Translations under genes and position numbers: made by a program | Shown here: positions 34,211 through 52,206 of the stretch, one piece after another | How the letters are laid out: every line of letters starts with the position of its first letter | Position numbering within the stretch: position 1 is the stretch's first letter | Source: Chitinophagaceae bacterium | GTDB taxonomy: Bacteria; Bacteroidota; Bacteroidia; Chitinophagales; Chitinophagaceae | DNA length: 64,000 nt | Reading direction: 5' to 3' | Assembly: GCA_023957125.1 (NCBI GenBank) | Contig: JAMLHL010000002.1 | Location: 248,001-312,000 of the forward strand | Notes under the pieces: model-generated | The model's input: only the letters and a program-made list of their open reading frames with translations | Told to the model about the DNA's origin: nothing | Database searches by the model: none

Positions 34211-35473
34211 TCAGAGCCCCTCCTGATCTATTTTTATTAGGTTGGTTTCCCCGGTATTTCTGATTTCATTTTTATCAATACCATAATGAATAACGTCAGT
34301 ACCGCTTCCGGTAAAAATACCATTCATAAACTCACAATTAGCAATCGGCGATTCTATTAAAATCAACGCGCTACCATCACCTATAAGATTCATCGCGAAG
34401 ATGTTATTTATCATCCCAGGCAATGAAGGTTTACCATAACCCTTACCTCCTACCAGCATGTTGTTGAACCTTGTTTTTGCTATTACACCATTTATATAAA
34501 CGTGGTGTACGCCCGCGCTGTCAGTGGCTCTTATGGCAATAGCACGGGTATTGGATTGGCAGGTGATATTGGTAATGGTGATTTGCTCAATATCATCCTG
34601 CGGGCCATGCCATCCGGCAGCAGTTACCATTGTAGAGTTTAAATCTCCGATACGATGCTCAGGATTAACAGTACCAAGATTAGAAAGTGCAATAAAATCA
34701 TCTTCCGTATTTCCTGAAATATTATTAATCCTGAAGTATTTACATCCCTGTCTTAAATCAATCCCATCCCTGTTGCGTATGATAATTTTATTACCATTTA
34801 CTATCTGTTCTTCAGGCAGGTTGAATCTTACATCAGATATGTAAGCATTCAGCGTTCTTTCAAAACTCACAGCCCATGCATGTGAATTTTCAATAGTAAC
34901 ATTTTGCAAATTGAATCCATCCACATAAGCCATCAGGATCATAATATTACGCCAGTCTCCTTTTTGTTTACGGCCTTCTTTGCCCGCATCGCTTCCATAG
35001 CTAACCCTCCCTGCTTGTGGCGCCAAAACCAATGTTCTGGCGCCGTCTCCGGTTGACCGGGGATTGTCAGCGCCTTTTAAAACAGCCTCGCCAACCCCGA
35101 TGATGCTTATATTTTTATTCCATGACACATGAGTAGTTCCGATACCTACATTATCGCTACGAAACATATTATCCCTGCTGCTATCAGATAATTGTATGAT
35201 GCAGTTATCAAGTATCACAGTCATATTATCGGGCAACAGGATTGCGCTATCTATCTTCCAGATATTAGTACCGTTTGCATTTCTCTGTGGGATTACGATT
35301 TTATGGGTGGTCTTTTTCGCAGCGTTGATGGCTGCCCGGATGCGTTCGATATCGCTGCCGGCGAAATCGTTGGGGGTGATATATTCTGTATTTAATTGAT
35401 ATCCACTCTGTGCAAGGATTTGTTGATGCGAAAAGAATAAAAACAGGGCAAATAAAGAATAAATAAATTTCAT
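34211..35473 (-). CDS. exported parallel beta-helix protein (pectate-lyase-like), copy 1
   Basis: 420 residues from ATG 35473, which begins a signal peptide (IYSLFALFLFFSHQQILAQ); the longer frame to 35566 has no plausible start. It shares with its paralogues the blocks ITPNDF-GSDI-RI, VIPQRN-NG, IIQLSDSSRDNMFRSDNVGIG, KGADNPRSTGD, YGSDAGK, KYFRINNISGNTEDDFIAL and the C-terminal FAMNLIGDG-ALILIESPIANC. The conserved Asp-rich NTEDDFIAL and NRDGIDLRQG stretches are candidates for a catalytic or calcium site. It is closer to the distant copy at 50932-52206 than to its tandem neighbour. It follows susD after 155 bases. Confidence 0.85.
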   Translation of the reverse strand: MKFIYSLFALFLFFSHQQILAQSGYQLNTEYITPNDFAGSDIERIRAAINAAKKTTHKIVIPQRNANGTNIWKIDSAILLPDNMTVILDNCIIQLSDSSRDNMFRSDNVGIGTTHVSWNKNISIIGVGEAVLKGADNPRSTGDGARTLVLAPQAGRVSYGSDAGKEGRKQKGDWRNIMILMAYVDGFNLQNVTIENSHAWAVSFERTLNAYISDVRFNLPEEQIVNGNKIIIRNRDGIDLRQGCKYFRINNISGNTEDDFIALSNLGTVNPEHRIGDLNSTMVTAAGWHGPQDDIEQITITNITCQSNTRAIAIRATDSAGVHHVYINGVIAKTRFNNMLVGGKGYGKPSLPGMINNIFAMNLIGDGSALILIESPIANCEFMNGIFTGSGTDVIHYGIDKNEIRNTGETNLIKIDQEGL

Positions 35474-35628
35474 AAGTGTATCTGAAGTTAATAAGTGTTT
35501 TAATAATTTTTCGATAACCTTCACTTCACATAGCTTATTACTACTCTTCAATAGTAACTTGTGCATCTCAAAAAATTTAAGTAGTTGTACCTGCCTCTAT
35601 TTCCCTTAAAATTCTTCTGCTTCGAAAC

Positions 35629-37096: not shown

Positions 37097-40000
37097 TTAA
37101 AATCCGATATCAATACCAAGCATAAAACTGCGATTAACAGGGTAAGTGCCCTGGTCAACTCCTGGTTGATATACCGAATCACCATATTGGCTAACCTCAG
37201 GATTGTACCCTACATATTGAGACAGAGTCAAAAGGTTTTGTGCGGTGACATAAATTCTTGCAGATTGCAAAAACCAGCTTGAAGCTTTTTTTGCAGGTAT
37301 TGCATATCCCAGGGTTAAGTTCCTTACCCTCAGAAATGATCCGTTATACACCACATAAGAATGTAGGTTGGAAGCTGCACCAAAACCTGAGCGGGGGCCT
37401 ACTCTTGCATACTTTACATCTCTTGTTGGATCATCAGGTTTAAAATAGTTATCGTCCATACCCTCCACAGCGTTAAATCTACCAATCCAAAGTTCTGTAT
37501 GGCGGCCTGCACCATTAATAATAGAATTGCCCAAAACACCCTGAACAATAATGCTTAGATCAAAATTATTATAAGAAAAGTTATTGGTCATCCCATATAT
37601 AAAATCGGGAAATCCATTACCCAATACTGTACGGTCTCCTTCATCTATATTTCCGTCTCCATTTACATCCCGGATTTTGTAATCTCCAACTCCTGATCCA
37701 GGCCACTTGGGGCTGTTGGCAAGTTCTTCAGCACTCTTGAAAACCCCGTCTATAATAAACCCATACATGTTGCCGAGGGGTTTTCCTACTTCTATCTTAA
37801 ATGAATTAGGCCATCCTCCAACTGAACTACTGGTCGGCAAAGATTCTCGTCCACCCAGATCCAAAACTTTTGACTTATTGAAACTTACATTCAAATTGGT
37901 ACTCCACTTAAAAGCACCAATGAAATTGCGGCTGGTAATGTCCGCTTCAATTCCCCGGTTACGTACATTCCCGGCATTGGTGGTAAAAGAACTTGCATAG
38001 CCCACAATTGCAGGTAAGCTTTTTGAGAAGAGCATCCCTTTCGTAATCTTATTATATGCATCCAGGGATATATATATTCTGTCGTTTAAAAAACCCATCT
38101 CTAATCCGATATCCGTCTGTCTGTTTTTTTCCCAGGTTAAATTTTGATTTAAAAAACCTGACTGATATACTCCTGCAACTCTTTGATCATCCAGACTATA
38201 GTTACCATAGGCTATGCGGCTCATCCACGTGAAATCTCCAATATTTGCGTTCCCTGTTTCTCCATAGCTTGCTCTTACCTTCAGTTCACTGAAAATTTGT
38301 TGATTTTGCATAAATGGCTCTTCAGACAGCCGCCATCCGGCTGAATAAGATTGAAAAACACCAAACCGGTTATTAGGTCCAAATTTGGAGGAACCGTCTG
38401 AACGTATTGATCCTGAGAATAAGTATTTGGCTTTATAATCATAGTTAATCCTTGCAGCATACGATACGAAGTCGTTTAATCCATAAGACAACGAACCTGT
38501 CTGATCAGAGGATGCTGTTGGATTATGAATCAGATCGTTTGTAAATGTCCCTAATTTCCCCTGGGTCCGTGTTGTTGTAGTGTAATACTTTTGCATGGAA
38601 GCAAGCAATAAAGCGGAAAGATTATGGCCTGACTCAAAACTTTTGGTATAGTTAAGTGTGTTCTGCCATATCCAGTCAAAAGTTTTGCTTTCTGCAACAC
38701 TGCTTGAAATGCCAGTCAAAACCGGTGTTGATAAATTAGCAAATGGAGATGTACCATAAGCTAAGGTTGAAGGAACATAGGCATTATTGGTACCAGCATC
38801 AACAGTAAGCCCTCCCTGGGTACGCAGGGTAAGCCCTTTGATAATATTCCATTCAAGAAACAGATTATTAAAAGAACCAAATGTATTCACCTGGTTTTTA
38901 TTAAGTTCCAAATAAGCCAAAGGATTGAAAATCCCTGTCTCAGCAAAACCGTATTGAGTATAAGGCAGTACATTATTTTGTCCATAATCTCCATTATCTA
39001 AATAAACAGGTACTACTGGTGGCATAAGTAAGGCTGTATAAACAGGTGAGTATGATGCGGGGCCAAGAGAAGTGGGAGTGCCCTGGATATCACGCCAGGT
39101 AAAGGATGGCGCCAGATCAAATCCTACTTTAAGGGATTTGGTAAGCTGGGCATCCAGATTAGCACGAAGATTAGCCACCTGGTAATTAGTCCCAACCATA
39201 CTACCTACCTGATTCAAGTAACTTCCGGAAACTGAAAACTGAACTTTTTCAGTACCTCCCTGAGCCCTTATTTCCATTTTTGACATAGGGGCGGTGCGGA
39301 AAATAACATCCTGCCAATCTGTATCAGGTAATTTTTCCGGTGTATCAAAGATATCGGGATACTGGAGTCCTAAAGCATTCCTGGCATCTTTAGCATAGGC
39401 AATGTACTGATCCTTATTCATCATCTTCATGCGTTTGGCTACATTTTGTACACCAGTATAGGCGCTTGCAGTGAAACTTGTCTTTCCAGCCTGACCGCGT
39501 TTAGTAGTAACTATTACTACGCCACTTGCCCCGCGAGATCCGTAAATAGCCGCTGATGCAGCATCTTTTAATACTTCTATAGATTGTATGTCCGAAACAT
39601 TTATTTTAGAAAACTCTTCTACACCCGGAAGAGGAAAGCCATCCACTACATAAAGGGGCTCATTTGAAGCGCCTAACGATGATGACCCGCGAATTCTAAT
39701 TGTGGGTGCAGCGCCAGGTGTGCTACCTGCGCCAGATTGCACCTGTACACCTGCTGCTAATCCTGTCAAAGCATCGCCAAGAGAAGATACAGGTAATTTA
39801 TTAATGTCCTGGGCAGAGATCTTACTAATAGAAGTAGAAAGTTTCTTTTTGAACTGGGTGCCATACCCCACTACTATCACATCGCTCAAAAGCGCACTAT
39901 TAGCCGTTAATCGTATATTCCAGTTTGTAGTGCTTCTAACAGGTATTTCCTGCGTTTCAAAACCACTGAAACTGAATACCAATATACTATTGCTCTGGCA

Positions 40001-40219
40001 GGCAATAGTGAATGTGCCATCTGCATCGGTTATTGTGCCAGTATTAGAACCTTTAATACCGACACTTGCTGCGGCCAGCGGCTGCCCATCGGTATCTGTA
40101 ATTTTTCCTGTAACAATCTTCTGTTGCTGTCCCTGGATGGTCAGGGAAAAAATTAATGTCATAAATAGTATGGGCAATCGCCTGCCCCGATACCATAATA
40201 GTAAATAATTGTTGAGCAT
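37097..40219 (-). CDS. SusC/RagA family TonB-dependent outer-membrane transporter
   Basis: 1040 residues. In order: signal peptide (PILFMTLIFSLTIQGQ), a carboxypeptidase-regulatory-like domain (TGKITDTDGQPLAAASVGIKG), a plug domain with the SusC signature (IEVLKDAASAAIYGSRGASGVV), and a 22-strand barrel ending in MLGIDIGF with the terminal aromatic. It imports glycan fragments over the outer membrane with TonB energy and SusD as lid. No extra secretin/TonB N-terminal domain for sigma-factor signalling is present, and no ECF sigma/anti-sigma pair is adjacent. It leads a unit of susC-susD-helix-helix. Confidence 0.97.
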   Translation of the reverse strand: MLNNYLLLWYRGRRLPILFMTLIFSLTIQGQQQKIVTGKITDTDGQPLAAASVGIKGSNTGTITDADGTFTIACQSNSILVFSFSGFETQEIPVRSTTNWNIRLTANSALLSDVIVVGYGTQFKKKLSTSISKISAQDINKLPVSSLGDALTGLAAGVQVQSGAGSTPGAAPTIRIRGSSSLGASNEPLYVVDGFPLPGVEEFSKINVSDIQSIEVLKDAASAAIYGSRGASGVVIVTTKRGQAGKTSFTASAYTGVQNVAKRMKMMNKDQYIAYAKDARNALGLQYPDIFDTPEKLPDTDWQDVIFRTAPMSKMEIRAQGGTEKVQFSVSGSYLNQVGSMVGTNYQVANLRANLDAQLTKSLKVGFDLAPSFTWRDIQGTPTSLGPASYSPVYTALLMPPVVPVYLDNGDYGQNNVLPYTQYGFAETGIFNPLAYLELNKNQVNTFGSFNNLFLEWNIIKGLTLRTQGGLTVDAGTNNAYVPSTLAYGTSPFANLSTPVLTGISSSVAESKTFDWIWQNTLNYTKSFESGHNLSALLLASMQKYYTTTTRTQGKLGTFTNDLIHNPTASSDQTGSLSYGLNDFVSYAARINYDYKAKYLFSGSIRSDGSSKFGPNNRFGVFQSYSAGWRLSEEPFMQNQQIFSELKVRASYGETGNANIGDFTWMSRIAYGNYSLDDQRVAGVYQSGFLNQNLTWEKNRQTDIGLEMGFLNDRIYISLDAYNKITKGMLFSKSLPAIVGYASSFTTNAGNVRNRGIEADITSRNFIGAFKWSTNLNVSFNKSKVLDLGGRESLPTSSSVGGWPNSFKIEVGKPLGNMYGFIIDGVFKSAEELANSPKWPGSGVGDYKIRDVNGDGNIDEGDRTVLGNGFPDFIYGMTNNFSYNNFDLSIIVQGVLGNSIINGAGRHTELWIGRFNAVEGMDDNYFKPDDPTRDVKYARVGPRSGFGAASNLHSYVVYNGSFLRVRNLTLGYAIPAKKASSWFLQSARIYVTAQNLLTLSQYVGYNPEVSQYGDSVYQPGVDQGTYPVNRSFMLGIDIGF

Positions 40220-40343
40220 TGAATTATAGTTTTAGTCTAAAAAAAAGTTACTGTGTGAGGATTTATTGAAGCATGGACGATATTTTATTGACACTTTAAA
40301 ATTACTACTGGTTGCTATCTAAAGAAACATCTGCATTTTCAAA

Positions 40344-41216
40344 TTATGACACTTCATTTGCATGATCTGTTATTATTTTCTTCCCTGCCTGAATTATATT
40401 CAAAGGTTCATCAAAGCCGGCATTTTTATGTACTATGTTCATCAATGTGCGGGTAATTTCTTCCGGCTTCTTATGCTGTATAATATTACGCCCATAAACA
40501 ATACCCGCAGCGCCCTGCTGCATTAAAGCAACGGTTCGCTGTATAATCTCTTCGTCATTTGTTTTTCCACCGCCACGCACTAATACCGGAACATTGCCTG
40601 CCACTTCCACAACTTTATGATATTCCTGTACGTTGGTACAGGGATCTGCTTTAATGATGTCGGCGCCTAATTCAACAGCCTGCCTTACAAGGGGAATGAT
40701 CTTTTGTATATCGCCATCCACCATATAACCTCCTTTCTCTGCATTGGGCTGAAACACCAGCGGCTCTATCATCAGCGGCATCTGGTAATGGTCTGCTTCC
40801 AGCTTCAGTTTTATAATATTATCTATACACTGAGCAGTAACCTCCGGCGCTCCGGGTATGGAAAACAGGTTGATGCACATGCAGGCAGCGTCAAGTCTTA
40901 CTGCCTGCAATGCAGCCTGCTCTATCATCTTGCTGAATGCAGTAGCCGGTAAGGATTTACCGTACACATTAGCCACATCCGTTCTCAATACGAGGGCAGG
41001 TTTTTGCCTGCCTGGTATCTGTTGTAAATACTTTGCCTGTCCCACAGTCAATTGTATAGCATCAGGCGCTGCATCAACAATTGCCTCAACAGCCGCCTGT
41101 ATATTTTCTATGCCTTCCAGGAAAGCATACTCATTGAAGAAGCCATGATCAATGGCTACGTCAAAACATTTCTTTGATACCGGGTGGAACAGCCTGTTCA
41201 GCCTGTAGGTTTTCAT
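40344..41216 (-). CDS. class I aldolase (DhnA/LacD/LsrF-like)
   Basis: 290 residues of the DeoC/FbaB/LacD superfamily (TIM barrel, Schiff-base aldolases). The N-terminal FDVAIDHGFF is the DhnA-type opening with the catalytic Asp. Lys189 in LGADIIKADPCTN is the likely Schiff-base lysine, and PVLVRGGGKTNDEE with VYGRNIIQHKKPEE forms the phosphate site. It probably cleaves a phosphorylated ketose made by the neighbouring isomerase and PfkB kinase. The family also contains 3,4-dihydroxypentanedione-phosphate and sulfosugar-phosphate aldolases, so the substrate stays open. It is the last gene of the six-gene catabolic operon. Confidence 0.88.
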   Translation of the reverse strand: MKTYRLNRLFHPVSKKCFDVAIDHGFFNEYAFLEGIENIQAAVEAIVDAAPDAIQLTVGQAKYLQQIPGRQKPALVLRTDVANVYGKSLPATAFSKMIEQAALQAVRLDAACMCINLFSIPGAPEVTAQCIDNIIKLKLEADHYQMPLMIEPLVFQPNAEKGGYMVDGDIQKIIPLVRQAVELGADIIKADPCTNVQEYHKVVEVAGNVPVLVRGGGKTNDEEIIQRTVALMQQGAAGIVYGRNIIQHKKPEEITRTLMNIVHKNAGFDEPLNIIQAGKKIITDHANEVS

Positions 41217-41249
41217 TGTATTGTGCGTATTATTTAAAACTTCCTTAAA

Positions 41250-41299
41250 GCCGCGAATGCACGAATGTATTTTGATATATTTATTCGTGCGTTAGTGGC
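41250..41299. repeat. short inverted repeat of the GCCACGAATGCACGAAT family
   Basis: Left arm GCCGCGAATGCACGAAT (41250-41266), right arm ATTCGTGCGTTAGTGGC (41283-41299), 16-base loop. The right arm overlaps the last codons and contains the stop codon (41292-41294) of the ceramidase-like gene. Confidence 0.8.
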
Positions 41300-42752
41300 G
41301 ATCGTCCCACATCGTATTGATCATCGCAACCGTTTCTTCTACCAGTACCTTACCTCCATCGGGCCCGATGTTGTTCGCCATAGCACTGTAGCCGCCGCCA
41401 TTGAGCGCTCGTTGCGTAGGCAGGTAACCACCTGAATCGCAGGCGAATTGAATGAGAAAAGTTTGTTTCGCTTTACTTCTCGCCGTAATGGCAAAACCGT
41501 AATCCACAAATAACTCAAAAGGATTGGTGGCCAAGGCTATTTCACCCAGCCGGATCACATGAAGTTCCATGTTGTAAATAGCATTCTTGTCCTGATTATG
41601 ATATTGTTCCAAGATCAATTCCATTGGTTTCAGCCAACCAAAATCAGAAGTCTTACTATCCCAGGGACCAAATTCCTTTGTTTTTTCGTTCTCCTTTATT
41701 TCACTGAGAAACCTGTTCCATGCCGTATCCGGAGATTGCGGATCGGCGGACTCGCGCGACCGGATTTCATTGACTACTTCGAGCGCCTTTGCATATTCTT
41801 CCCGGCTCACTCTCCGGGTAGGGAGATCAATGTTTTTAACAAGATGGCGGAAAACAACGGAAGTTTGAATGTTGTTTTGTGCTTCAGTGTAGGTATCATC
41901 AACCACTCTTGTTATTCGTTTACCTATTTCAACAATACCGGGTATATCCCACATATCGGGTTCACCGGTTCTATAGGCTGCACTCAAATCGCGTGGAGAA
42001 ATATCTCCTGCGGCGCTACATTGAGCAAGCACAAAAACATCTTCTCCATATTTTTCTTTTATTGACTTCCGTACTTCGCTCCAGTAATCGGCAGAAACAT
42101 AATATTTGGCTTCGGTGACCTGTGCCGGGCAAGCTACATTTACGATGATACCCGTAAGCTTCTTGTTTAAATTCCAGCAAAAAAGCAAATCAATTCCCGG
42201 ATCTGCAGTTCCCTCGATACCTGTAAAATCAGGTCTGCTTGTATCACCGTACATCTCTGCTGTTCCATCGGCATACATCACCCTGCGGTTATGCCCGATG
42301 ACCGCATAATCAAAGCCGGTGCTGATAGCCGCGGGTTTACGATTTTTCCATGCATTAACCACAGCTTTACAGATACCATTTAATAATATTTTACCGAAGC
42401 TGCTTTCCACTTCGGGGTAAGGCGCCGAATGCGTATGAGTGGCATTCAAAAATATTTTGTTTAGATCGAGTTCTGGTATTGTTCCCCGCAGGTGCATACG
42501 AACCGCATCCTGCATCTCTTTTAAAGTGTAGATCACATCCATCGAAACCAGTACCGCCTGCTCTGAACCGCCGTCATCCACGATCTTTTCCATGGCACAT
42601 GCCGTTACAGTTAAAGAGCTCTGCACATATCCCGAAATCCGCTCATAGTATTGGCCGTACAGTGACACCGGGCCTTCCGGCGTTACATCCTCAGCAGCCC
42701 AGCCAATGCGTAAGCCACCGTCTTTTAATTGATATTGTGAGCTATTTGCCAT
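41292..42752 (-). CDS. cytosolic neutral/alkaline ceramidase-like amidohydrolase
   Basis: 486 residues related to the N-terminal catalytic domain of neutral ceramidases. Visible family features: LRIGWAAEDVTPEGPVSLYGQYYER opening, zinc histidines in LNATHTHSAP (residues 102-110), GHNRRV, and the nucleophile motif AAGDISPR with Ser252. The C-terminal immunoglobulin-like domain of ceramidases is absent. There is no signal peptide, so it acts in the cytosol, unlike secreted ceramidases. In this sugar operon it more likely cleaves an N-acyl bond or other amide on a sugar-like compound than ceramide; that is inference. Its last codons lie in a dispersed repeat. Confidence 0.85.
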   Translation of the reverse strand: MANSSQYQLKDGGLRIGWAAEDVTPEGPVSLYGQYYERISGYVQSSLTVTACAMEKIVDDGGSEQAVLVSMDVIYTLKEMQDAVRMHLRGTIPELDLNKIFLNATHTHSAPYPEVESSFGKILLNGICKAVVNAWKNRKPAAISTGFDYAVIGHNRRVMYADGTAEMYGDTSRPDFTGIEGTADPGIDLLFCWNLNKKLTGIIVNVACPAQVTEAKYYVSADYWSEVRKSIKEKYGEDVFVLAQCSAAGDISPRDLSAAYRTGEPDMWDIPGIVEIGKRITRVVDDTYTEAQNNIQTSVVFRHLVKNIDLPTRRVSREEYAKALEVVNEIRSRESADPQSPDTAWNRFLSEIKENEKTKEFGPWDSKTSDFGWLKPMELILEQYHNQDKNAIYNMELHVIRLGEIALATNPFELFVDYGFAITARSKAKQTFLIQFACDSGGYLPTQRALNGGGYSAMANNIGPDGGKVLVEETVAMINTMWDDRH

Positions 42753-42832
42753 AATTAAATATTTTCAGGATCAAACATTATTTTGGACATTTATTTACGA
42801 CTTGCTGTTCAACGACCCCACATTTTTTCTAT

Positions 42833-42887
42833 GCCGCGAATGCAAGAATAAAAGATCAAATGCATTATCTATTCGTGCATTCGTGGC
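42833..42887. repeat. short inverted repeat of the GCCACGAATGCACGAAT family
   Basis: Left arm GCCGCGAATGCAAGAAT (42833-42849), right arm ATTCGTGCATTCGTGGC (42871-42887), 21-base loop, 15 of 17 arm positions paired. It lies between the aminotransferase and the ceramidase-like gene, inside the presumed operon. Confidence 0.8.
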
Positions 42888-42902
42888 TCTTATATTCATA
42901 TC

Positions 42903-44291
42903 TTATTTATATCCAAATTCTTTTTCCACCTCACTTATAGCATCTTCAATAATATCCATGCCCATCGCAGCATATTTTTCATCCATGATCAGCGGTGGCG
43001 ACATGCGGAGAATATGACCAGCGGGTATCCATGCGAGTCCTTTTCTAAACGCTTTCTGATATACCGATACGCCGGCTTCCGCAAAAGGTTCTTTGGTTAT
43101 CTTGTCTTTTACCAGCTCTATTCCCAATAAAAAACCTTTGCCTTTTACATCGCCGATAATGGGATGCTCCATTTTCATTTGCTGCATCCGCTTCATGAAA
43201 TAACTACCCACCGTTCTTACATTCTCCAGGATATTTTCTTCTTCGATCACTTCCATGGAAGCCAGGGCCGCAGCACAGGCCATCGGGTTGCCGCCATAGC
43301 TGGAAGAGGCTGAAATTTTTTCCAGCGCTTCACCATTTTCCTCGCTTACTACCATGGCGGTTACGGGGAACCCGTTGCCGAATGATTTGCCAAAGGTTAC
43401 AATATCCGGTATTACGTTCCAGTGGTTCAGGGTAAGCCACTCTCCGGTTCTTCCCATGCCTGCCAATACCTCGTCATCATACAGCAGTATTTCATGCTTT
43501 TCACACAAGCTCTTAAGCTTTGGGAAAAAATCATCGGGTGGAAAAATACTTCCAGCCCATCCCTGTGCCGGCTCCAATACAAAAGCGGCTACATTTCCTA
43601 CCGTTCCTTCTATCAAAAATTGTTCATAGAATTGAATATAAGCATCCGTGTCAATCGTGCCATCGGCTTTGGTCCATAGAGGACGGTAAGGATCGGGACG
43701 AGGTACCATATAAAATCCGGCCGCCCTCATGGGTCCATAGCTCAGCGTTTCGCTCCTGTGCATCCGGGCGCAGCTTACCGCTCCCATACTTTTGCCATGA
43801 AAATCGCGGTAGGCGGAAATGAATTCATGCTTATGGGTAATGGCCCTTGCCGCCCGTATCGCTGCTTCCACGGCCGTTGCGCCATCGGAATACAATTGCA
43901 CTGCATTCAGCTTACCGGGCAGGATGGCTGCCATCTTCTCCAGCAGCTTCTCTTTTACAGGTGTGGTGAAGTCATGCGCATTCATCAGCTTCTTTGCCCA
44001 GTAAGCGATCGCTTCCGATATTTTCGGATGGCAATGCCCCAGCGAAGTGACATATATGCCGGAAGAGAAATCGAGATATTTATTACCGTCTACATCTGTA
44101 AGCGTTATCCCGCTGCCTTCTTCAAAACAAACCGGGAATAGCTTTACCTGCGAGCTTAATCCTTTCATATACCGCGCAGCATTGGCATGCATCTGTTTTG
44201 AGCGTTGACCGGGCACTGCTGTTATCAAATGCGGAATGCCTTCGGCACTGCTGTGCCACCAGTTTCTATTGATCTTCAAAGTATCATTCAT
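42903..44291 (-). CDS. class III PLP-dependent aminotransferase
   Basis: 462 residues of the class III (ornithine/GABA/beta-alanine) aminotransferase family. The PLP lysine is Lys302 in TFGKSFGNGFPV; the cofactor-ring Asp is in LYDDEVLAGMGRTG, EPAQG is at 240-244, and SDGATAVEAAIRAARA binds the phosphate. It moves an amino group from a terminal or secondary amine to a keto acid. The family also includes dialkylglycine decarboxylases. Within this operon it could remove the amino group from a deacylated aminosugar or aminopolyol. It starts 29 bases after the PfkB kinase gene. Confidence 0.92.
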   Translation of the reverse strand: MNDTLKINRNWWHSSAEGIPHLITAVPGQRSKQMHANAARYMKGLSSQVKLFPVCFEEGSGITLTDVDGNKYLDFSSGIYVTSLGHCHPKISEAIAYWAKKLMNAHDFTTPVKEKLLEKMAAILPGKLNAVQLYSDGATAVEAAIRAARAITHKHEFISAYRDFHGKSMGAVSCARMHRSETLSYGPMRAAGFYMVPRPDPYRPLWTKADGTIDTDAYIQFYEQFLIEGTVGNVAAFVLEPAQGWAGSIFPPDDFFPKLKSLCEKHEILLYDDEVLAGMGRTGEWLTLNHWNVIPDIVTFGKSFGNGFPVTAMVVSEENGEALEKISASSSYGGNPMACAAALASMEVIEEENILENVRTVGSYFMKRMQQMKMEHPIIGDVKGKGFLLGIELVKDKITKEPFAEAGVSVYQKAFRKGLAWIPAGHILRMSPPLIMDEKYAAMGMDIIEDAISEVEKEFGYK

Positions 44292-44320
44292 AATGTTGAA
44301 ATATTTTATTTGGTATGCTG

Positions 44321-45487
44321 TTATAGCTTACCATTGTTTTCTGCATTTACAGGCAGTTGTTTTATATCTTTCACTTCAACCAAAGCTTCTTGTAACTCTT
44401 TCGTCATCATTGCCCATTCCGGCATATCCTCGAATATATTGTTGCAATACAAATTATTTTTACCGGCAATAGCGGCATATTTCATCGCCACACCAGGCAG
44501 CTCCCCATTTAAAATGGCAGTGAGAAATGCAGCGGCGGAAGTATCACCGGCGCCGGACGCGTTGATTATCTTTCCCTGGATTGCGGGGTAGGCTTCGCAC
44601 CACAGTTGCCTGTTGTTCCATTCCGCCTCGGGGAGGCATAGCGTTCCCTTATTGTTTACCGAAGCCACATTTCCCGTCCATAAAAACAAGCCTTTGTGAG
44701 CCGCTTTGATCAAAACAATGTTGGCGCCCCAGGCAATCAACGTTTCACCCAATTCCTTAATGAGATCCGCCGGCGCATGATCCACAATATCACCCCCGGC
44801 GGCTTCCAGCACCGTATATTCATACGGGAAAACCATTTTTAAAGCCTCTTCCAGGCTGGGCACAAAAATGTCGGTGTGAGGTAGCACAGCTTTTAAGACA
44901 TCTATCCAATTCACTTTTCCCGATTCGCTTTCTGTATCCGGCAAACTAAAGTCGAGCGAGGTTACCACTCCCAGGTCACTTATTTTCTTAAAAAGCGAAA
45001 CCAGTTGTTTTCCTTTCTGCCGGTAAAATTTTTTTAACAGCGGCGGGTAGCCGAAATGAAACACCCTGCTTTCCGCTACCGCATCATAATCTATATGATG
45101 AAGGTCGAACAACTCGCTGCATCCCGGCGACTCAAGGAAAATACGGTCCACAGCCGGCGGCGCTATCACCAAACCAAAGGCTGTGCCTTTATCCTTTACT
45201 GTCCGTATCCCTTCCAGCAATCCATATTGCGCTAAAGACTCCCTCGCTATTTTGCCGATAAAATCCGTGCCCAGTAACCCGTTGAGAAAAACCCGTTTTG
45301 AAAATTTTTTCATAGCCATACCCGTGTTGGCCACAACGCCGCCAAGAGTGGATTCCATACCGTCAATTTCAACCAGCCTGCCCGGGCGGAGTACATCGTA
45401 CACCTCATTTATCGTAACGTCTTTTTTAAACACAGGGATCAGGTCTATACAAATATATCCGGCTATTACCGCATCGTATTTTTTCAT
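44321..45487 (-). CDS. PfkB family carbohydrate kinase
   Basis: 388 residues of the ribokinase/PfkB fold. The N-terminal GYICIDLIPVF and GGVVANTGMAMKK (substrate-binding GG) and the C-terminal NASGAGDTSAAAFL with the catalytic Asp and anion hole are plain. It is longer than ribokinase (about 310 residues), with inserts around the DVLRPGRLVEIDGMES lid and LCLPEAEWNNRQLWCEAYP. It phosphorylates a sugar or ketose from ATP. The isomerase gene ends 9 bases upstream, so isomerisation and phosphorylation are probably successive. Confidence 0.92.
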   Translation of the reverse strand: MKKYDAVIAGYICIDLIPVFKKDVTINEVYDVLRPGRLVEIDGMESTLGGVVANTGMAMKKFSKRVFLNGLLGTDFIGKIARESLAQYGLLEGIRTVKDKGTAFGLVIAPPAVDRIFLESPGCSELFDLHHIDYDAVAESRVFHFGYPPLLKKFYRQKGKQLVSLFKKISDLGVVTSLDFSLPDTESESGKVNWIDVLKAVLPHTDIFVPSLEEALKMVFPYEYTVLEAAGGDIVDHAPADLIKELGETLIAWGANIVLIKAAHKGLFLWTGNVASVNNKGTLCLPEAEWNNRQLWCEAYPAIQGKIINASGAGDTSAAAFLTAILNGELPGVAMKYAAIAGKNNLYCNNIFEDMPEWAMMTKELQEALVEVKDIKQLPVNAENNGKL

Positions 45488-45496
45488 GAGGATACT

Positions 45497-46840
45497 TTAA
45501 ATCACATTTATATTTTTCAGGTAGCAAAAGTCCTTTAACAAGCAGGTCTGATCGCCATACGCAACAATATAGTGCTGGCCCGAAACCTTTTCGGAAAAAT
45601 CGTCAACGGCTTGATCAAGCATCAGCTCAAAGCTGGGCAATTGCGGGGCTGGCTGCTCCCATCCGGCTTCCTCCCATCTGACATGCTTCGCAGTGCCGGT
45701 TATAATATGCATGCTGTAATGATTTCCTGTATTAGCAAGACGTGCAAGCGTCATCCTACCGGTTTTTACCTCGGAGATATTCAGCAAACCACCGCTTATA
45801 CCTCCAAAAGCAGAGCGGGTTACCTTTACTTTACCTTCCACTACTTCTGAAGGCACATAATCGGGGACTCCCATCAATACTCCCTTTTCAAAGAATTCGT
45901 AAAATTCGAAATAGGCGCCGCATTGCCCGGTAAGCTGCTTTACGATCAATTGCGTAACCGCACCCATCACGTCATTTTCCGGGATAGTACACAAGCCTGC
46001 CTCATCGGCCAGAAGCATGAACAGGAATGCCGGTGGAAAATGCAGCAACTTTTTCATGCCATCCACGTCTTTAAGAGAAAGAGCTTTATAACCATTGTTC
46101 CTGGCAATTTTTTGCAAAGCCAGGTAGTAACGAATGCCCTTCCTGAGGAAGTCTTCATCTACCGGCTGCACAAACTGCCATTCAGACCTGATCTTATTCA
46201 GCAGCGGTTCAATTCGGGCTTCATCAACCTGCTCAGCCACCTGCAGCAGCTCCAGCATTTCGAAGAACTCCACATCAATGCCGAAATCCTTTTTAAGCGA
46301 CAATCCTTCATACAACGTGTTGTATAATTTCATGTCGCGGAATCCCATCATACCCACCCGGCTACCTGCAATTGATCTCTGAGCAAATGCAGCTTTTACA
46401 AAACATGCTATTCTATGAAGGGGCGACGGCTGACCGATGATGTTGTATACGTACCTGAATTTATATCCCAGGTCTGAAAACACTTTTCTTAAGGCAGTAG
46501 TACCCGCCTGGGCCGCTGCCGTAATAATACGTCCGTTTTCCATATCCCCCGCAAGTCCCCACAAAACGATCGGTTTGTGCGCATACTCGTGGGCGACAGC
46601 AATTACAGCATGAGAAGGTATCCAGCCGGCAAGACATACGATCAGCACTTCAAATGGCTCCTTCCCAAGATCTGCTATTGCCCGCGCTACGTCTTTGCCT
46701 TCCGCATCGTCTGTTACAACGGCTGTTGTAACGAGTGGAAAACCCAGTGATGCGATCTCTTCTCTCGCCGTCCGGCATTTGGCTTTAATCAATTCAGCCG
46801 GAGAATTGATCTCTCCAAATCCAACAAAACCTATTTTCAT
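45497..46840 (-). CDS. L-fucose/L-arabinose isomerase-like protein
   Basis: 447 residues resembling the L-fucose/L-arabinose isomerase superfamily: an N-terminal Rossmann-like part (KIGFVGFGEINSPAELIKAK, LIVCLAGWIPSHAVIAVAHEY, KPIVLWGLAGDMENGR), a middle helical part and a C-terminal domain with HYSMHIITGTAKHVRWEEAGW. Family members convert aldoses to ketoses with Mn2+. The usual metal-ligand Glu/Asp/His set is not all obvious to me, so catalysis is likely but not certain. It starts directly at the stop codon of the MFS porter gene (no gap). Confidence 0.82.
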   Translation of the reverse strand: MKIGFVGFGEINSPAELIKAKCRTAREEIASLGFPLVTTAVVTDDAEGKDVARAIADLGKEPFEVLIVCLAGWIPSHAVIAVAHEYAHKPIVLWGLAGDMENGRIITAAAQAGTTALRKVFSDLGYKFRYVYNIIGQPSPLHRIACFVKAAFAQRSIAGSRVGMMGFRDMKLYNTLYEGLSLKKDFGIDVEFFEMLELLQVAEQVDEARIEPLLNKIRSEWQFVQPVDEDFLRKGIRYYLALQKIARNNGYKALSLKDVDGMKKLLHFPPAFLFMLLADEAGLCTIPENDVMGAVTQLIVKQLTGQCGAYFEFYEFFEKGVLMGVPDYVPSEVVEGKVKVTRSAFGGISGGLLNISEVKTGRMTLARLANTGNHYSMHIITGTAKHVRWEEAGWEQPAPQLPSFELMLDQAVDDFSEKVSGQHYIVAYGDQTCLLKDFCYLKNINVI

Positions 46841-48241
46841 TCAAATCCTTTTAAAAACATTCAATAAATCCTTATCCACAGGTTTATCTGTCCATAATGA
46901 AGCAACATTTTCGAGGCTTAATCCTTTTGTTTCCGGTATCATCTTCCACGAAAAAATCACGCAACCCAAACATATCAGGGCAAAAATGATATACACTCCC
47001 GCCGGATCATTAAATCGTTCACTGAACCAGTGGGTGAGTACCGGGAAAAACTGGGCAGTGATAAAGGACGACAGATAGAGAAAGAAACAAACCACCGCCA
47101 GTGCCTTCCCCCGGATGTGATTGGGATATATTTCCGATATAATGACCCAGCTTAGAGGCGCCAGTCCTAAGGTGAAGGAACCGGTGCCTATTAACATAGG
47201 TATTAATGTAACAATGGGCGGCCAATGCCGGTGCAGGATAAACGCCATCAAAAGATGAGCCGCGCACATCCCGCAAACACTGGCTATCAGCAGGCCCCGC
47301 CTGCTGAACCGTTTTATCAAACCGAAGGCGGCCACCGTGCAGATGAAAATAAAAACGTATATCGGTATGGAGCTTAAAATAGCGCTTGAGCCAACAGATA
47401 CACCCGCGTCCGCCAGTATGCTCGGCGCATAAAGCAACATCATATTTACACCGTTGATCTGAGAAAAGATCATCAAAATAATTCCAACTATCAAAGCCTT
47501 GTATATACCCGGCTGCATTAATTCCTCAAAGCCGCCGGTAGCCGAACCGAATGATTTTTGAATATTACCCAGCTCCTGCTCAGCCATTTTCGCAACATTT
47601 ACTTTTTTAAGAATGGCAAGCGCTTCCTCCATCCGGCCTTTCGATGCCAGCCATCGCGGACTTTCAGGAATTAACATCAGTCCCACCATTAAAAACAATA
47701 CGGGAATCGCCTGGGAAGCGAACATCCACCGCCAGCCCCAGCCATCAAACGAAAAAAAATAACTTACGACAACCGCGAGGTTAATGCCAATTACATTGGA
47801 GAGCTGGTTTACATTTACCAGTACTCCGCGTTTATGCGGCGGCGATAGCTCCGCAATATAGATGGGAGAAGACATCATTGCCAGACCAATGCCCAACCCA
47901 CCAACAAAACGCCATACGCTGAAACTCCATATATCAGCCGCCAGCGCAGTTCCCATGGTGGAAACCATAAAAAAAAGAGCAGCAACCATCATCGTCACTT
48001 TCCTTCCCAGTTTTTCTGCGAACCACAACCCTGACAAAGGTCCGATGATGGCCCCGAAAATCGCACTGCTTACTGCAAGTCCCTTCAGGGCCGGTGATAA
48101 ATGGAAATCCGTTTCAAGAAAAGGAAGCGCCCCGGCAATAATTACCAGGTCGAAACCAAACAAAAAGCCGCCCACTGAAGCTACCAACGTAACACCGAAT
48201 ATGTACCTGTTCTGTTTACCCCGACTGCTTATTTCATCCAT
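46841..48241 (-). CDS. MFS sugar porter family transporter
   Basis: 466 residues from ATG 48241 with 12 membrane segments. Sugar-porter signatures are clear: GGFLFGFDLVIIAGALPFL in helix 1, GPLSGLWFAEKLGRKVTM after helix 2, WRFVGGLGIGLAMMSSPIYIAELSPPHKRG, PESPRWLASKGRMEEA and a C-terminal PETKGLSLE. It probably imports the free sugar or sugar derivative over the inner membrane by proton symport. It is the first gene of the six-gene catabolic operon, divergent from the AraC regulator. The longer frame to 48295 lacks a better start. Confidence 0.93.
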   Translation of the reverse strand: MDEISSRGKQNRYIFGVTLVASVGGFLFGFDLVIIAGALPFLETDFHLSPALKGLAVSSAIFGAIIGPLSGLWFAEKLGRKVTMMVAALFFMVSTMGTALAADIWSFSVWRFVGGLGIGLAMMSSPIYIAELSPPHKRGVLVNVNQLSNVIGINLAVVVSYFFSFDGWGWRWMFASQAIPVLFLMVGLMLIPESPRWLASKGRMEEALAILKKVNVAKMAEQELGNIQKSFGSATGGFEELMQPGIYKALIVGIILMIFSQINGVNMMLLYAPSILADAGVSVGSSAILSSIPIYVFIFICTVAAFGLIKRFSRRGLLIASVCGMCAAHLLMAFILHRHWPPIVTLIPMLIGTGSFTLGLAPLSWVIISEIYPNHIRGKALAVVCFFLYLSSFITAQFFPVLTHWFSERFNDPAGVYIIFALICLGCVIFSWKMIPETKGLSLENVASLWTDKPVDKDLLNVFKRI

Positions 48242-48366
48242 ATACCGATTACTTAAAGATTTGTATGAACGAACGGCTGCTTCATTATACACCACCGGCA
48301 GGCGCTGTATTGACAGGTCGAAATTATTGCACTTTTTACCGAAAGAATACGACTGGTTTTTCCATT

Positions 48367-48434
48367 TATAACACTATTTTTTCATCAGACCGCAATACGG
48401 TTTTTCATCAAATTATAACACGGTTTTTTCATCA
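48367..48434. promoter_or_regulatory. three spaced direct repeats, candidate AraC-type operators
   Basis: Three copies of a unit like TATAACACGGTTTTTTCATCA end at 48387, 48410 and 48434, giving spacings of 23 and 24 bases, roughly two helical turns. Copies 1 and 3 differ at two bases over 21; copy 2 (48391-48410) keeps AATACGGTTTTTCATCA. They sit in the 237-base gap between the divergent MFS and AraC genes. Spaced direct repeats of this size are typical AraC-family sites. Confidence 0.65.
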
Positions 48435-48478: not shown

Positions 48479-49354
48479 ATGCAGCCCAAGCTGGAAAAAA
48501 TTCCTGTTCAGCATGCGTCATCCATCACAGTGAAAAGAGAGATCACGCCGTATATGGATTATCCCTGGCATTATCACCCTGAGCATGAGATCATCTTTGT
48601 GGAAAAAAGCTATGGGATCCGTTTTATGGGAAATCACATCGGGAATTTTTCAGATGGCGACCTGATGTTCATCAGCTCGAACCTGCCTCATGTTTGGAAA
48701 AACGACAACGATTTTTACCAGGGCAACAAAGCGTTGTTTGTAGATGTGTATGTTATACACTTCCGGGATGATGTGCTGGGCAGCGGTTTTTTCGATTTAC
48801 CGGAATGCATGCATATTAAAAGGTTGTTCGAAAAAGGGCAGCAGGGTGTTTTTATACAAGGCGCTGACCATAGAAAAATATCAGGACTTATTAAGGATGT
48901 AGTGTCCGCAACCGGGATGGAAAGATTAATTCTTTTTCTAAAGACCCTGGAAACGATCGCACATACAAAAGATTATGAATTACTTTCCAGTGCAGGCTAT
49001 ACCAGCACGGTGAATACCTCGGACACAGAGCGCATTAATGTGGTAATGAATTACATCATGCAGCATTATGCGGAAGATATCTCAGTAGAGGAAATTGCCA
49101 GCCTGTCGAACCTTACCGTATCATCCTTCTGCCGTTATTTCAAATCAAGAACACAAAAAACATTCTCTGAATTTTTAAATGAAGTTCGTATCCTCAACGC
49201 CTGTAAACTACTCGTAAAAAAAGAAATGACCATTACCCAAATATGCTATGACACCGGCTACAACAATATCTCGCATTTTAACCGGCAGTTTAAACTTATC
49301 ACCGGACTAACAGCAAAAGAGTACGCAAAAAAGTACCGGCAGAATCTTTTGTAA
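48479..49354 (+). CDS. AraC family transcriptional regulator
   Basis: 291 residues. The N-terminal cupin-like sensor domain has the HYHPEHEIIFVEK strand and FSDGDLMFISSNLPHVW, a typical ligand-binding beta-barrel. The C-terminal AraC DNA-binding domain has two helix-turn-helix motifs (ISVEEIASLSNLTVSSFCRYFKS and MTITQICYDTGYNNISHFNRQFK). It is divergent from the MFS-led operon and most likely controls it through the repeats at 48367-48434, with a sugar as ligand. No hybrid two-component system or ECF sigma factor is found in this island, so this is its only visible regulator. Confidence 0.94.
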   Translation: MQPKLEKIPVQHASSITVKREITPYMDYPWHYHPEHEIIFVEKSYGIRFMGNHIGNFSDGDLMFISSNLPHVWKNDNDFYQGNKALFVDVYVIHFRDDVLGSGFFDLPECMHIKRLFEKGQQGVFIQGADHRKISGLIKDVVSATGMERLILFLKTLETIAHTKDYELLSSAGYTSTVNTSDTERINVVMNYIMQHYAEDISVEEIASLSNLTVSSFCRYFKSRTQKTFSEFLNEVRILNACKLLVKKEMTITQICYDTGYNNISHFNRQFKLITGLTAKEYAKKYRQNLL

Positions 49355-49422: not shown

Positions 49423-50862
49423 CTAAAACTTCGTCTTAGCCTTATTCCATACATCCTCCGGAACCCCATGCGTTTTCTTCAATACCTGGTATCTTTTACG
49501 CAACTCCGCCAGTTTTGTTTTATACTTTGAATCCCCCGCCAGGTTATCGGTTTCATGCGGGTCGTGTTTTACATCAAATACTTCCTCGTAATTATGCTCT
49601 ATCCAGTTCATGTATTTAAAATCCCCCGTCACCACGCCCTCCACTCTCGGGATCCTCGGCCCGCCTAAAAAGTAATGCTGGTAAAAGAAATCCTTTCTTT
49701 CAGGGATCCTGTTTTCCACTAAACTAATGAGATCCATGCCCTGCATGCCTTTGGGGGCAGGCACCCCGGCCATGGACAGGATAGTAGGAGCAATATCTAT
49801 ATTCAGCGCCATTTGGGGCGCCCGGTATTGTTTGATCTTATCCGGTGCATTAGGATCGTAAATGAAAAGCGGCACCCGGATAGATTCTTCATAACCATAC
49901 CATTTGCCCTCTATACCATGCTCTCCCAGGAACATTCCGTTATCTCCCATAAAAATAATAATGGTATTTTTTGCGATTCCCAACTGCTCCAACTTTTTCA
50001 CCATGTCACCCACCACGCCGTCAACACCCGTTATTAACCGGTAATAATTTTTGACATTTTCCTGGTACAGCTCCGGGGTTCCAAAAAGGCCCTTCCATCT
50101 TTCCCTTCCAAAATTCGTATCCGTTCTGAAGAAGTCCGGAAGCTGATCCCAGTATTGAGGCGCGGCGGTTACCGGGGAAGGAATGGTAACATCGTTGTAA
50201 TAGTCTTTATATTGGGGTTGAATAATGTATTTCGGCGGATGACCATCCTGCTCGTGCGGCGCTTTAAAACTTACAGACAGGCAAAAGGGTTTGTCGGCAT
50301 GACCAAATTCGTCTAAAAATGTTTGAATGGCATTTCCCAGTGTATCCGTATCATGAACCTTGCTGCCGTCTTTGCCGGTGATCACATAGTCGGGCTGTCC
50401 CTTCCCTCCTGCCTCCGTATCCACCCAAAAATCATAGATAGATTCCGGCGGATTTTTTCCCACACCAAATTTTCCCGCAAAGCCTAAATTATACCCGGCC
50501 GCTTTTAATAATACCGGGTAAGTCTTTTCCATGGCTTCCGGACTTAAGTCGGTTGAAAAGTCATGGATCTGATGCCTCGATTCGTATTGCCCGGTGAGTA
50601 TGCTGGCCCGGCTCACACAGCAAATGGAAGTAGTAACATAGGCATTTTGAAATAATATACCGGCGCTTGCCAGCTTATCCATATTGGGCGTTTGGATGAT
50701 GGTATTGCCCATTGCTCCCAATGCATCCCAACGCTGATCGTCTGTGAGTAAAAAAATGATGTTGGGTTTGGATTTTTCCTCATTTCTGCCTTGTTGAGCA
50801 AAAAGAGAAAAAATACAGGAGCACAGAAAAAAGGGCAGTATAAAAAGCGATTTATATATCAT
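49423..50862 (-). CDS. exported type I sulfatase (S1 family)
   Basis: 479 residues from ATG 50862, starting with a signal peptide (LFILPFFLCSCIFSLFAQ). Metal-binding Asp41/Asp42 in LLTDDQRWD, the formylglycine motif with Cys81 (ICCVSRASILTGQ; the usual Pro is Val) and the GDNGMFLGEHG segment identify an alkaline-phosphatase-fold sulfatase. It needs a formylglycine-generating or anaerobic maturase, not seen here. It would remove sulfate from a glycan or sulfolipid headgroup in the periplasm or at the surface. The third beta-helix gene lies upstream on the same strand, and AraC converges downstream. Confidence 0.94.
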   Translation of the reverse strand: MIYKSLFILPFFLCSCIFSLFAQQGRNEEKSKPNIIFLLTDDQRWDALGAMGNTIIQTPNMDKLASAGILFQNAYVTTSICCVSRASILTGQYESRHQIHDFSTDLSPEAMEKTYPVLLKAAGYNLGFAGKFGVGKNPPESIYDFWVDTEAGGKGQPDYVITGKDGSKVHDTDTLGNAIQTFLDEFGHADKPFCLSVSFKAPHEQDGHPPKYIIQPQYKDYYNDVTIPSPVTAAPQYWDQLPDFFRTDTNFGRERWKGLFGTPELYQENVKNYYRLITGVDGVVGDMVKKLEQLGIAKNTIIIFMGDNGMFLGEHGIEGKWYGYEESIRVPLFIYDPNAPDKIKQYRAPQMALNIDIAPTILSMAGVPAPKGMQGMDLISLVENRIPERKDFFYQHYFLGGPRIPRVEGVVTGDFKYMNWIEHNYEEVFDVKHDPHETDNLAGDSKYKTKLAELRKRYQVLKKTHGVPEDVWNKAKTKF

Positions 50863-50931
50863 ATAATCCGTTCCCCGGGTTTCTATAGTTGTTGAGTTCC
50901 AAATATACAAGAATAAGAAACGAAATGTTCA

Positions 50932-52206
50932 TCACGGAGTTGGCCGACCTGTTTTTATCAGGTTGGTTTCCACTATATTGTTTGTTTCATTTTTGTCTAT
51001 GCCATAACGAATAATATCAGCTCCTCCTCCCGTATAGATACCATTCATAAAGACACAATCCGCAATGGGCGATTCTACCAAAATCAAAGCGTCGCCATCT
51101 CCTATAAAATTCATAGCTAAGATATTGTTGATCATGCCCGGCAATGAAGGTTTACCATAGCCTTTACCTCCTATCAGCATGTTATTGTATCTTGTTTTGG
51201 CAATTACATCATTTATATAAACATGATGGATACCTGCACTATCCGTTGCCCTTATAGCAACGGCGCGGGTATTGGATTGGCAGTTGATATTGGTAATAGT
51301 GATCTCTTCAATATCATCCTGCTGTCCATACCATTCCGAAGCGGTTACCATAGTGGAGTTCAGGTCTCCTATCTGGCGGATAGTATCTGAAGTGCCGAGA
51401 TTAGATAGCGCGATAAAATCATCTTCGGTATTTCCTGAAATATTATTGATCCGGAAGTATTTACATCCCTGTCTTAAATCAATCCCGTCCCGGTTGTGCA
51501 CCACCACTTTCCTGCCTTTCACGGTTTGTTCTTCCGGCAGATCAAATCTTACATCGGCAATAAAAGCGTTCAGGGTTCTTTCAAAACTCACTGCCCAGGC
51601 ATGCGATTTTTCAATAGTAACATTCCGCAGTGTAAATCCATCTACATAGCCCATAAGGATCATGATATTGCGCCAGTCACCGGTTTGCTTTCTGCCGGGT
51701 TTTCCGGCATCACTTCCATAGCTTACCCTCCCTGGCCGGGGCGTCAACACCAGGGTTCTGTGCCCATCCCCTGTGGCCCTGGGATTATCCGCTCCTCTTA
51801 AAACCACCTCCCCTATTCCGATGATGCTGATATTTTTATTCCACGACACGCCGTTGACGCCAATCCCTACATTATCACTGCGAAACATATTATCCCTGCT
51901 GCTGTCGGATAACTGCAGGATACAGTTGTCGAGAATAACCGTCATATCGCCGGGCAATAGAATGGCGCTGTCTATTATCCATTGGTTGGTACCGTTCGAA
52001 TTCACCTGGGGGATCACTATTTTATGCGTGGTGTTTTTAGCCGCTTGGATCGCTGCCCGGATCCGCTCGGTATCAGTGCCGGTAAAATCATTGGGGTTGA
52101 TGATGGTTGCAGCGGACGCCTTATCCCGGCCGGTACCGGTTTGAGCTATGACCGAACTGTTCGAATGCAATAAAAAAAAAGATAGGAATACGATAACGAA
52201 CTTCAT
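50932..52206 (-). CDS. exported parallel beta-helix protein (pectate-lyase-like), copy 3
   Basis: 424 residues with a signal peptide (IVFLSFFLLHSNSSVIAQ). It repeats all blocks of copy 1 (34211-35473): INPNDFTGTDTERIRAAI, KIVIPQVNSNG, QLSDSSRDNMFRSDNVGIG, YGSDAGK, NRDGIDLRQGCKYFRINN, ISGNTEDDFIALSNLG and AMNFIGDGDALILVESPIADC. A longer linker follows the signal peptide. It lies about 15 kb from the susCD-linked copies, next to the sulfatase (69-base gap). The triplication suggests either gene dosage or three related glycan linkages. Confidence 0.85.
   Translation of the reverse strand: MKFVIVFLSFFLLHSNSSVIAQTGTGRDKASAATIINPNDFTGTDTERIRAAIQAAKNTTHKIVIPQVNSNGTNQWIIDSAILLPGDMTVILDNCILQLSDSSRDNMFRSDNVGIGVNGVSWNKNISIIGIGEVVLRGADNPRATGDGHRTLVLTPRPGRVSYGSDAGKPGRKQTGDWRNIMILMGYVDGFTLRNVTIEKSHAWAVSFERTLNAFIADVRFDLPEEQTVKGRKVVVHNRDGIDLRQGCKYFRINNISGNTEDDFIALSNLGTSDTIRQIGDLNSTMVTASEWYGQQDDIEEITITNINCQSNTRAVAIRATDSAGIHHVYINDVIAKTRYNNMLIGGKGYGKPSLPGMINNILAMNFIGDGDALILVESPIADCVFMNGIYTGGGADIIRYGIDKNETNNIVETNLIKTGRPTP

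Follow-up and report, generated by a model that had tools for sequence, protein, structure and literature searches.

The gap between an araC-family gene and a divergent operon headed by an MFS transporter gene, situated in the 64-kb window analysed here (the whole stretch of 64,000 nucleotides from a Chitinophagaceae bacterium), very probably carries a tandem operator of the adjacent AraC-type regulator. The putative operator consists of two direct half-sites, A and B, and would serve the MFS operon and, as a second copy, a susC gene; two further repeats beside B would be duplicates of B. A sighting of repeats thereby becomes a testable regulon that comprises an operator, promoter predictions and a candidate for the regulator and serves an uncharacterised isomerase-kinase-aminotransferase-aldolase pathway in Chitinophagaceae relatives. 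The genes and sites concerned are the following (window coordinates):

48479–49354, plus strand: AraC-family regulator, 291 aa, HTH_18
46841–48295, minus strand: MFS sugar porter, which heads the divergent operon (true start codon possibly further in, at 48243)
40344–46840, minus strand: isomerase, PfkB kinase, class III aminotransferase, ceramidase-like protein and aldolase, the remaining operon
37097–40219, minus strand: SusC-like outer-membrane transporter, predicted second target (called from the sequence by eye)
48349–48363, plus strand: half-site A, ACGACTGGTTTTTCC, the one nearer to the MFS promoter; evident from 11 orthologous gaps in ungapped alignment
48370–48384, plus strand: half-site B, AACACTATTTTTTCA, within the first reported repeat; overlaps the likely araC −7 box
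48394–48410, plus strand: copy 2, AATACGGTTTTTCATCA, one base short and lineage-specific; absent from L043, L044 and L055
48414–48434, plus strand: copy 3, TATAACACGGTTTTTTCATCA, with ACGG instead of ACTA; ancestral distance to the araC start kept
40327–40364, plus strand: second operator before susC, with A at 40327–40341 and B at 40348–40362

Repeats, half-sites and their rarity

The initial annotation had described three direct repeats at 23–24-base spacing in this gap, which is bounded by the araC start at 48479 (plus strand) and the MFS ORF start at 48295 (minus strand). When both strands of the window were searched, the 10-mer TTTTTCATCA was found exactly three times, with ends at 48387, 48410 and 48434 precisely as described, and the spacing was reproduced as well: successive copies lie 24 and 23 bp apart, and copy 1 is 47 bp from copy 3. 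The middle copy fits the description less well, being one base short and diverged; along 17 bases it resembles copy 3 apart from a single substitution and a missing T, and it lacks the 5′ TATAA. The 21-mer TATAACACGGTTTTTTCATCA has one exact match in the window (48414–48434) and one with two mismatches (48367–48387), compared with a mean of 0.00 in shuffled sequence. No third match with up to three mismatches is present in the window, and for this 21-mer the statement that the window holds no other copy of the unit is correct. When the 183-bp gap was shuffled 2000 times with its dinucleotides preserved, some 10-mer occurred three times in 32 of the shuffles, and the TTTTTCATCA triplet alone is therefore only moderately unusual; the pairing of copies 1 and 3, which are 85 per cent identical over 27 bases, is the stronger evidence.

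The proposal that the repeats are operator-like holds insofar as an AraC-type operator is well supported, because the element is conserved in orthologous gaps, keeps a fixed distance to a divergent promoter box, has few occurrences in the genome and is found together with the AraC gene. Its anatomy, however, had been misread. The real pair is 21 bp apart; the first of the reported repeats alone belongs to it, and the interval 48367–48434 misses half-site A. A and B are direct half-sites separated by exactly 21 bp both in the window and in the ungapped alignment of 11 gaps, which is the spacing of an AraC/XylS-type tandem operator, and the block common to the loci reads about ACTACTGnnTTTTCAAATTATGACACTATATTTGCAT. 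Five loci (L048–L051 and L062) show no clear A at the 21-bp spacing in their araC gap, and the element is absent from that of L061.

A position matrix built from 10 orthologous sites, with the window left out, ranks the interval 48349–48386 first in the window (score 39.5) and the interval 40327–40364 second (35.2); the next unrelated place scores 7.9. The second of these lies before susC and overlaps the aldolase gene at its 3′ end, B falling within the last codons. The araC–MFS gap is thus not the sole regulatory gap, contrary to what had been claimed for it. A sequence model (R1) made from 11 orthologs, again excluding the window, finds two good matches over the 4.67-Mb genome of the organism itself (E 1.2e-10 and 3.0e-9), followed by a match at E 0.14. 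In pattern searches of the whole genome with one mismatch allowed, AACACTATTTTTNCA occurs at 12 places (7 in the reversed control), whereas the A–B pair pattern with up to three mismatches occurs at two places (none in the control); a single half-site is therefore hardly specific, but the pair is. The unit is not spread through the genome either, as a genome motif search confirmed: ACACNNTTTTTTCATCA with up to one mismatch occurs at five places against one in the reversed control, and its two exact occurrences are both in this gap. With good sites so rare, a search for the motif could reveal other genes of the pathway and, through them, its substrate.

Predicted promoters on both sides of the operator

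The element TAnnTTTG is the sigma-A −7 box of Flavobacterium psychrophilum, located at −12 to −5 (PMC9723704). The predicted boxes of this kind in the window are listed below, and all transcription starts given here are predictions from the consensus:

48319–48326, minus strand: predicted −7 box of the MFS operon, TAATTTCG, five of six positions; start predicted near 48314
48375–48382, plus strand: likely −7 box of araC, TATTTTTT, five of six positions, lying within half-site B; predicted start near 48387
40297–40304, minus strand: predicted −7 box of susC, TAATTTTA, five of six positions; offset from the operator as at the MFS operon; start predicted near 40292

On the MFS side, a Bacteroidetes sigma-A box lies at a defined place. 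Minus-strand TAnnTTTG (CAAAnnTA on the plus strand) is found 52 nt from the ACACT of B, at five or more of six positions, in all 15 loci tested out of 21, the others having been left out partly after inspection (L048–L051 and L062 have no clear A and no divergent operon was seen; L061 has no element). The match is perfect in nine of the 15 and reaches five of six positions in the window, and at other offsets from −100 to −21 a box is present in at most three of the 15 loci. The neighbour labels in this comparison were assigned by hand, and the divergent gene was identified in all loci except L052, L054 and L056–L058. By arithmetic, a box at −12 to −5 puts the MFS start near 48314, half-site A at −35 to −49 and half-site B at −56 to −70. 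Relative to this predicted start, A abuts or overlaps the −35/−33 region of the presumably activated promoter, and the layout as a whole is that of an AraC/XylS-type activator site.

A −7 box at five or more of six positions accompanies 11 of 13 secondary sites, which were hand-picked from the top-four matrix lists (the set has a 14th row, occupied by the second B of L045; a minus-strand place in L061, scoring 17.1, was left out); the misses are L044 (four positions) and L061 (three). In two Chitinophaga loci, the secondary operator (L053:6839–6879 and L059:6855–6895) is partly palindromic and scores weakly, at 6.0 and 10.4, respectively, on the opposite strand.

On the araC side, the dinucleotide TA preceding the nnTTTG of B is present in 14 of 15 araC-gap sites and in seven of 28 sites elsewhere (P = 1.8e-5), and in a thinned, hand-chosen set in 10 of 11 and four of 14 (P = 0.0037), both P values being too small because the sites are related by descent. 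The whole box at five or more of six positions shows a weak contrast (13 of 15 araC gaps versus 20 of 28 sites elsewhere), so the claim of an araC box within B rests on the TA. Such a box suggests autoregulation of araC. Copies 2 and 3 match TAnnTTTG at only three of six positions; the araC start should therefore lie with copy 1, with the extra copies in the leader. A reading of the repeats as an RNA leader element was dropped, as an Rfam search returned no match at E up to 0.1.

The extra copies of half-site B

Genomes in the collection compared here contain 20 loci related to the AraC protein at 56–96 per cent identity. The three closest orthologs (L043, L044 and L055; 95–96 per cent) have a single unit copy, TTTATAACACTATTTTTTCATCAAAAAA, at the same place as B, and Agriterribacter humi (L045) has two copies, 26 bp apart. 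The distance from the MFS-side box to the araC start codon is 47 bp longer in the window than in L044 and L055, and 46 bp longer than in L043. The single copy in the closest orthologs and the additional 46–47 bp point to copies 2 and 3 as an expansion in the window's lineage. Comparison of orthologous gaps, which had been proposed as a check on the repeats, thus speaks for a conserved operator but against a conserved array: three copies are found in none of these four gaps, and each of the three closest orthologs lacks copies 2 and 3.

The annotated reading, in which the three repeats together form an operator bound cooperatively by AraC as a three-site array, consequently appears improbable. 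It can draw on the TTTTTCATCA core common to all three copies, on the 15-base half-site length retained by copy 3, and on the extra copies in L045 and, in B-like form, in L050. Scored as a pair with the matrix, however, copies 2 and 3 reach 6.8, a background value below that of the next-best unrelated place in the window, and model R1 gives copy 3 by itself 9.1 bits (E 6.6). Relative to the helix, the 24- and 23-bp steps are off phase by 103 and 69 degrees, compared with 0 degrees for a 21-bp step, and the susC operator has no such repeats. Both extra copies read ACG where the 11 aligned araC gaps show ACT and have lost the promoter TA; ACG is, however, also the reading of L061 and of one site that presumably works (G007:37440). 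Copies 2 and 3 are probably decaying duplicates, weak or non-functional, rather than working operators.

B-type copies number three in the window, two in L045 and, as B-like copies, two in L050. In L050 (8562–8620), one B-like copy contains a perfect TATATTTG and lies 47 bp upstream of the usual B, a step equal to the distance from copy 1 to copy 3 in the window. If B acts as both an activator site and the araC core promoter, its tandem duplication might be separating the two roles, with subfunctionalisation under way. In the window, copy 1 retains the promoter TA and its spacing from A, and the last copy is the one at the ancestral distance from the araC start codon. In L045, the operator distance is kept by the upstream copy, from which the promoter TTTG has been lost, and the araC distance by the downstream copy. 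We regard this scenario as improbable. Half-site copy number that differs among close relatives offers, in any case, a small natural experiment on the evolution of an operator that overlaps a promoter.

The regulator, its relatives and known systems

The AraC-family protein has the C-terminal double helix-turn-helix of its family (PF12833, 73.9 bits; cut-off 33.6). Orthologs at 73 per cent identity or more were found in nine of 148 relative genomes, its own included, and the matches listed after these are paralogs at 42–43 per cent or less. The best match to the motif has E ≤ 2.9e-7 in all nine genomes with an ortholog, two of which (G003 and G040) supplied training sites, compared with 6.5e-4 as the best value in the other 139. 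Weak matches (E 6.5e-4 to 0.008) occur in 15 of those 139 genomes, more than the E-values predict, and the E-values are therefore too small, perhaps tenfold. The second helix of all 16 orthologs, window included, carries NN(I/L)SHFNR, and three paralogs differ there; this shared recognition helix is suggestive only.

The isomerase of the pathway is present in the same nine of 148 genomes as the AraC ortholog, and co-occurrence alone therefore cannot name the binder. The identical distributions leave room for a different regulator, one that accompanies the operon and for which the conserved block would be the operator. We consider this very improbable, as the block stays in the araC gap even where the neighbour is different (in L047 and L060, the pair in the araC gap faces a susC-like gene and not an MFS operon), and a 21-bp direct repeat is an AraC-type habit. 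Judged by sequence, the adjacent regulator is the common factor among the sites, though the isomerase shares its genome distribution.

In five of the genomes (G006–G010), paired sites are located away from araC, where they precede susC, a sulfatase gene and the gene that lies ahead of isomerase-kinase-aminotransferase-aldolase, and the araC gap has B only. Boxes lie at the expected place in these genomes, but the model that found the sites includes the box, and the agreement is not an independent test. The paired site stands directly before the sulfatase gene in L101, L102, L103, L105 and L106 (G006–G010), and the sulfatases of these genomes may be members of the regulon; the sulfatase gene of the window (49423–50910) has no such paired site. 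One of the five, the metagenome assembly G010, contains two AraC orthologs (L032 and L035; 95 and 74 per cent) and two isomerase genes on different contigs, a doubling that could be real or could reflect a mixed assembly.

Sites away from araC also bear on an explanation with no regulator, in which B is the −7 region and A the −33 region of the araC promoter, and the repeats arose by slippage in T-runs. B does overlap TAnnTTTG, with TA kept in araC gaps, T-runs do favour slippage, and five loci keep B alone. Nevertheless, the 21-bp pair of A and B is also found in front of susC and of further genes that have no araC in their vicinity, where TA is mostly absent and ACACT and TTTGCAT are mostly kept, and two good sites in 4.67 Mb are too few for a general promoter motif. 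This explanation is very improbable.

We therefore favour the tandem A–B operator of the adjacent AraC-type regulator, for which the following mechanism is proposed. Two regulator monomers would bind A and B, 21 bp or two helix turns apart, beside the MFS −33 region. In the presence of an inducer, the bound regulator would bring RNA polymerase to the divergent MFS-isomerase-kinase-aminotransferase-aldolase operon, and the second operator copy would extend activation to susC/susD. With the likely araC −7 box held within B, the bound regulator should limit its own transcription. Copies 2 and 3, situated in the predicted araC leader, would have arisen by tandem duplication of B.

As for what the regulon may handle, the isomerase scored below the cut-offs of both the sulfoquinovose and the arabinose isomerase models. 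Three similar proteins (32930–34186, 34211–35566 and 50932–52206) with the look, by eye, of secreted right-handed beta-helices flank the cluster on both sides; the one scanned (50932–52206) has no Pfam match at 0.001. A search of the open-access literature, which most subscription journals lie outside, found no description of the regulon.

AraC-type hybrid two-component systems of Bacteroides are the nearest parallel in spacing. Their predicted direct repeats average 21 bp, one example having a 5-bp spacer between 16-bp sites, and the predictions lie upstream of susC/susD and glycan genes (PMC3878776). The likeness to these systems concerns the ~21-bp spacing; unlike them, the candidate here is a one-component regulator of the AraC family.

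In the E. coli AraC system, the adjacent operators araI1 and araI2 are used in the activated state, and araI2 recruits RNA polymerase. The putative operator described here would likewise consist of two adjacent sites. Direct-repeat spacing and a divergent araC gene are likewise shared with the E. coli arrangement. The protein itself is, in contrast, far below the cut-off of the E. coli AraC equivalog model NF007860 (52 versus 208 bits).

At the promoter Pm, XylS binds two direct repeats, of which the second extends two bases into the −35 box (PMC4225500); each repeat is 15 bp long and made up of TGCA-N6-box B. Read on the minus strand, consensus B is similarly TGCA-N6-GTGTC. The XylS sites at Pm lie at −70/−56 and −49/−35, with a 6-bp spacer; these are the same numbers as those predicted here for B and A. 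Pm is a proteobacterial promoter, unlike the one here with its Bacteroidetes −7 box. On the sequence comparisons made, the putative operator is a new example of the known AraC-type kind with ~21-bp direct repeats.
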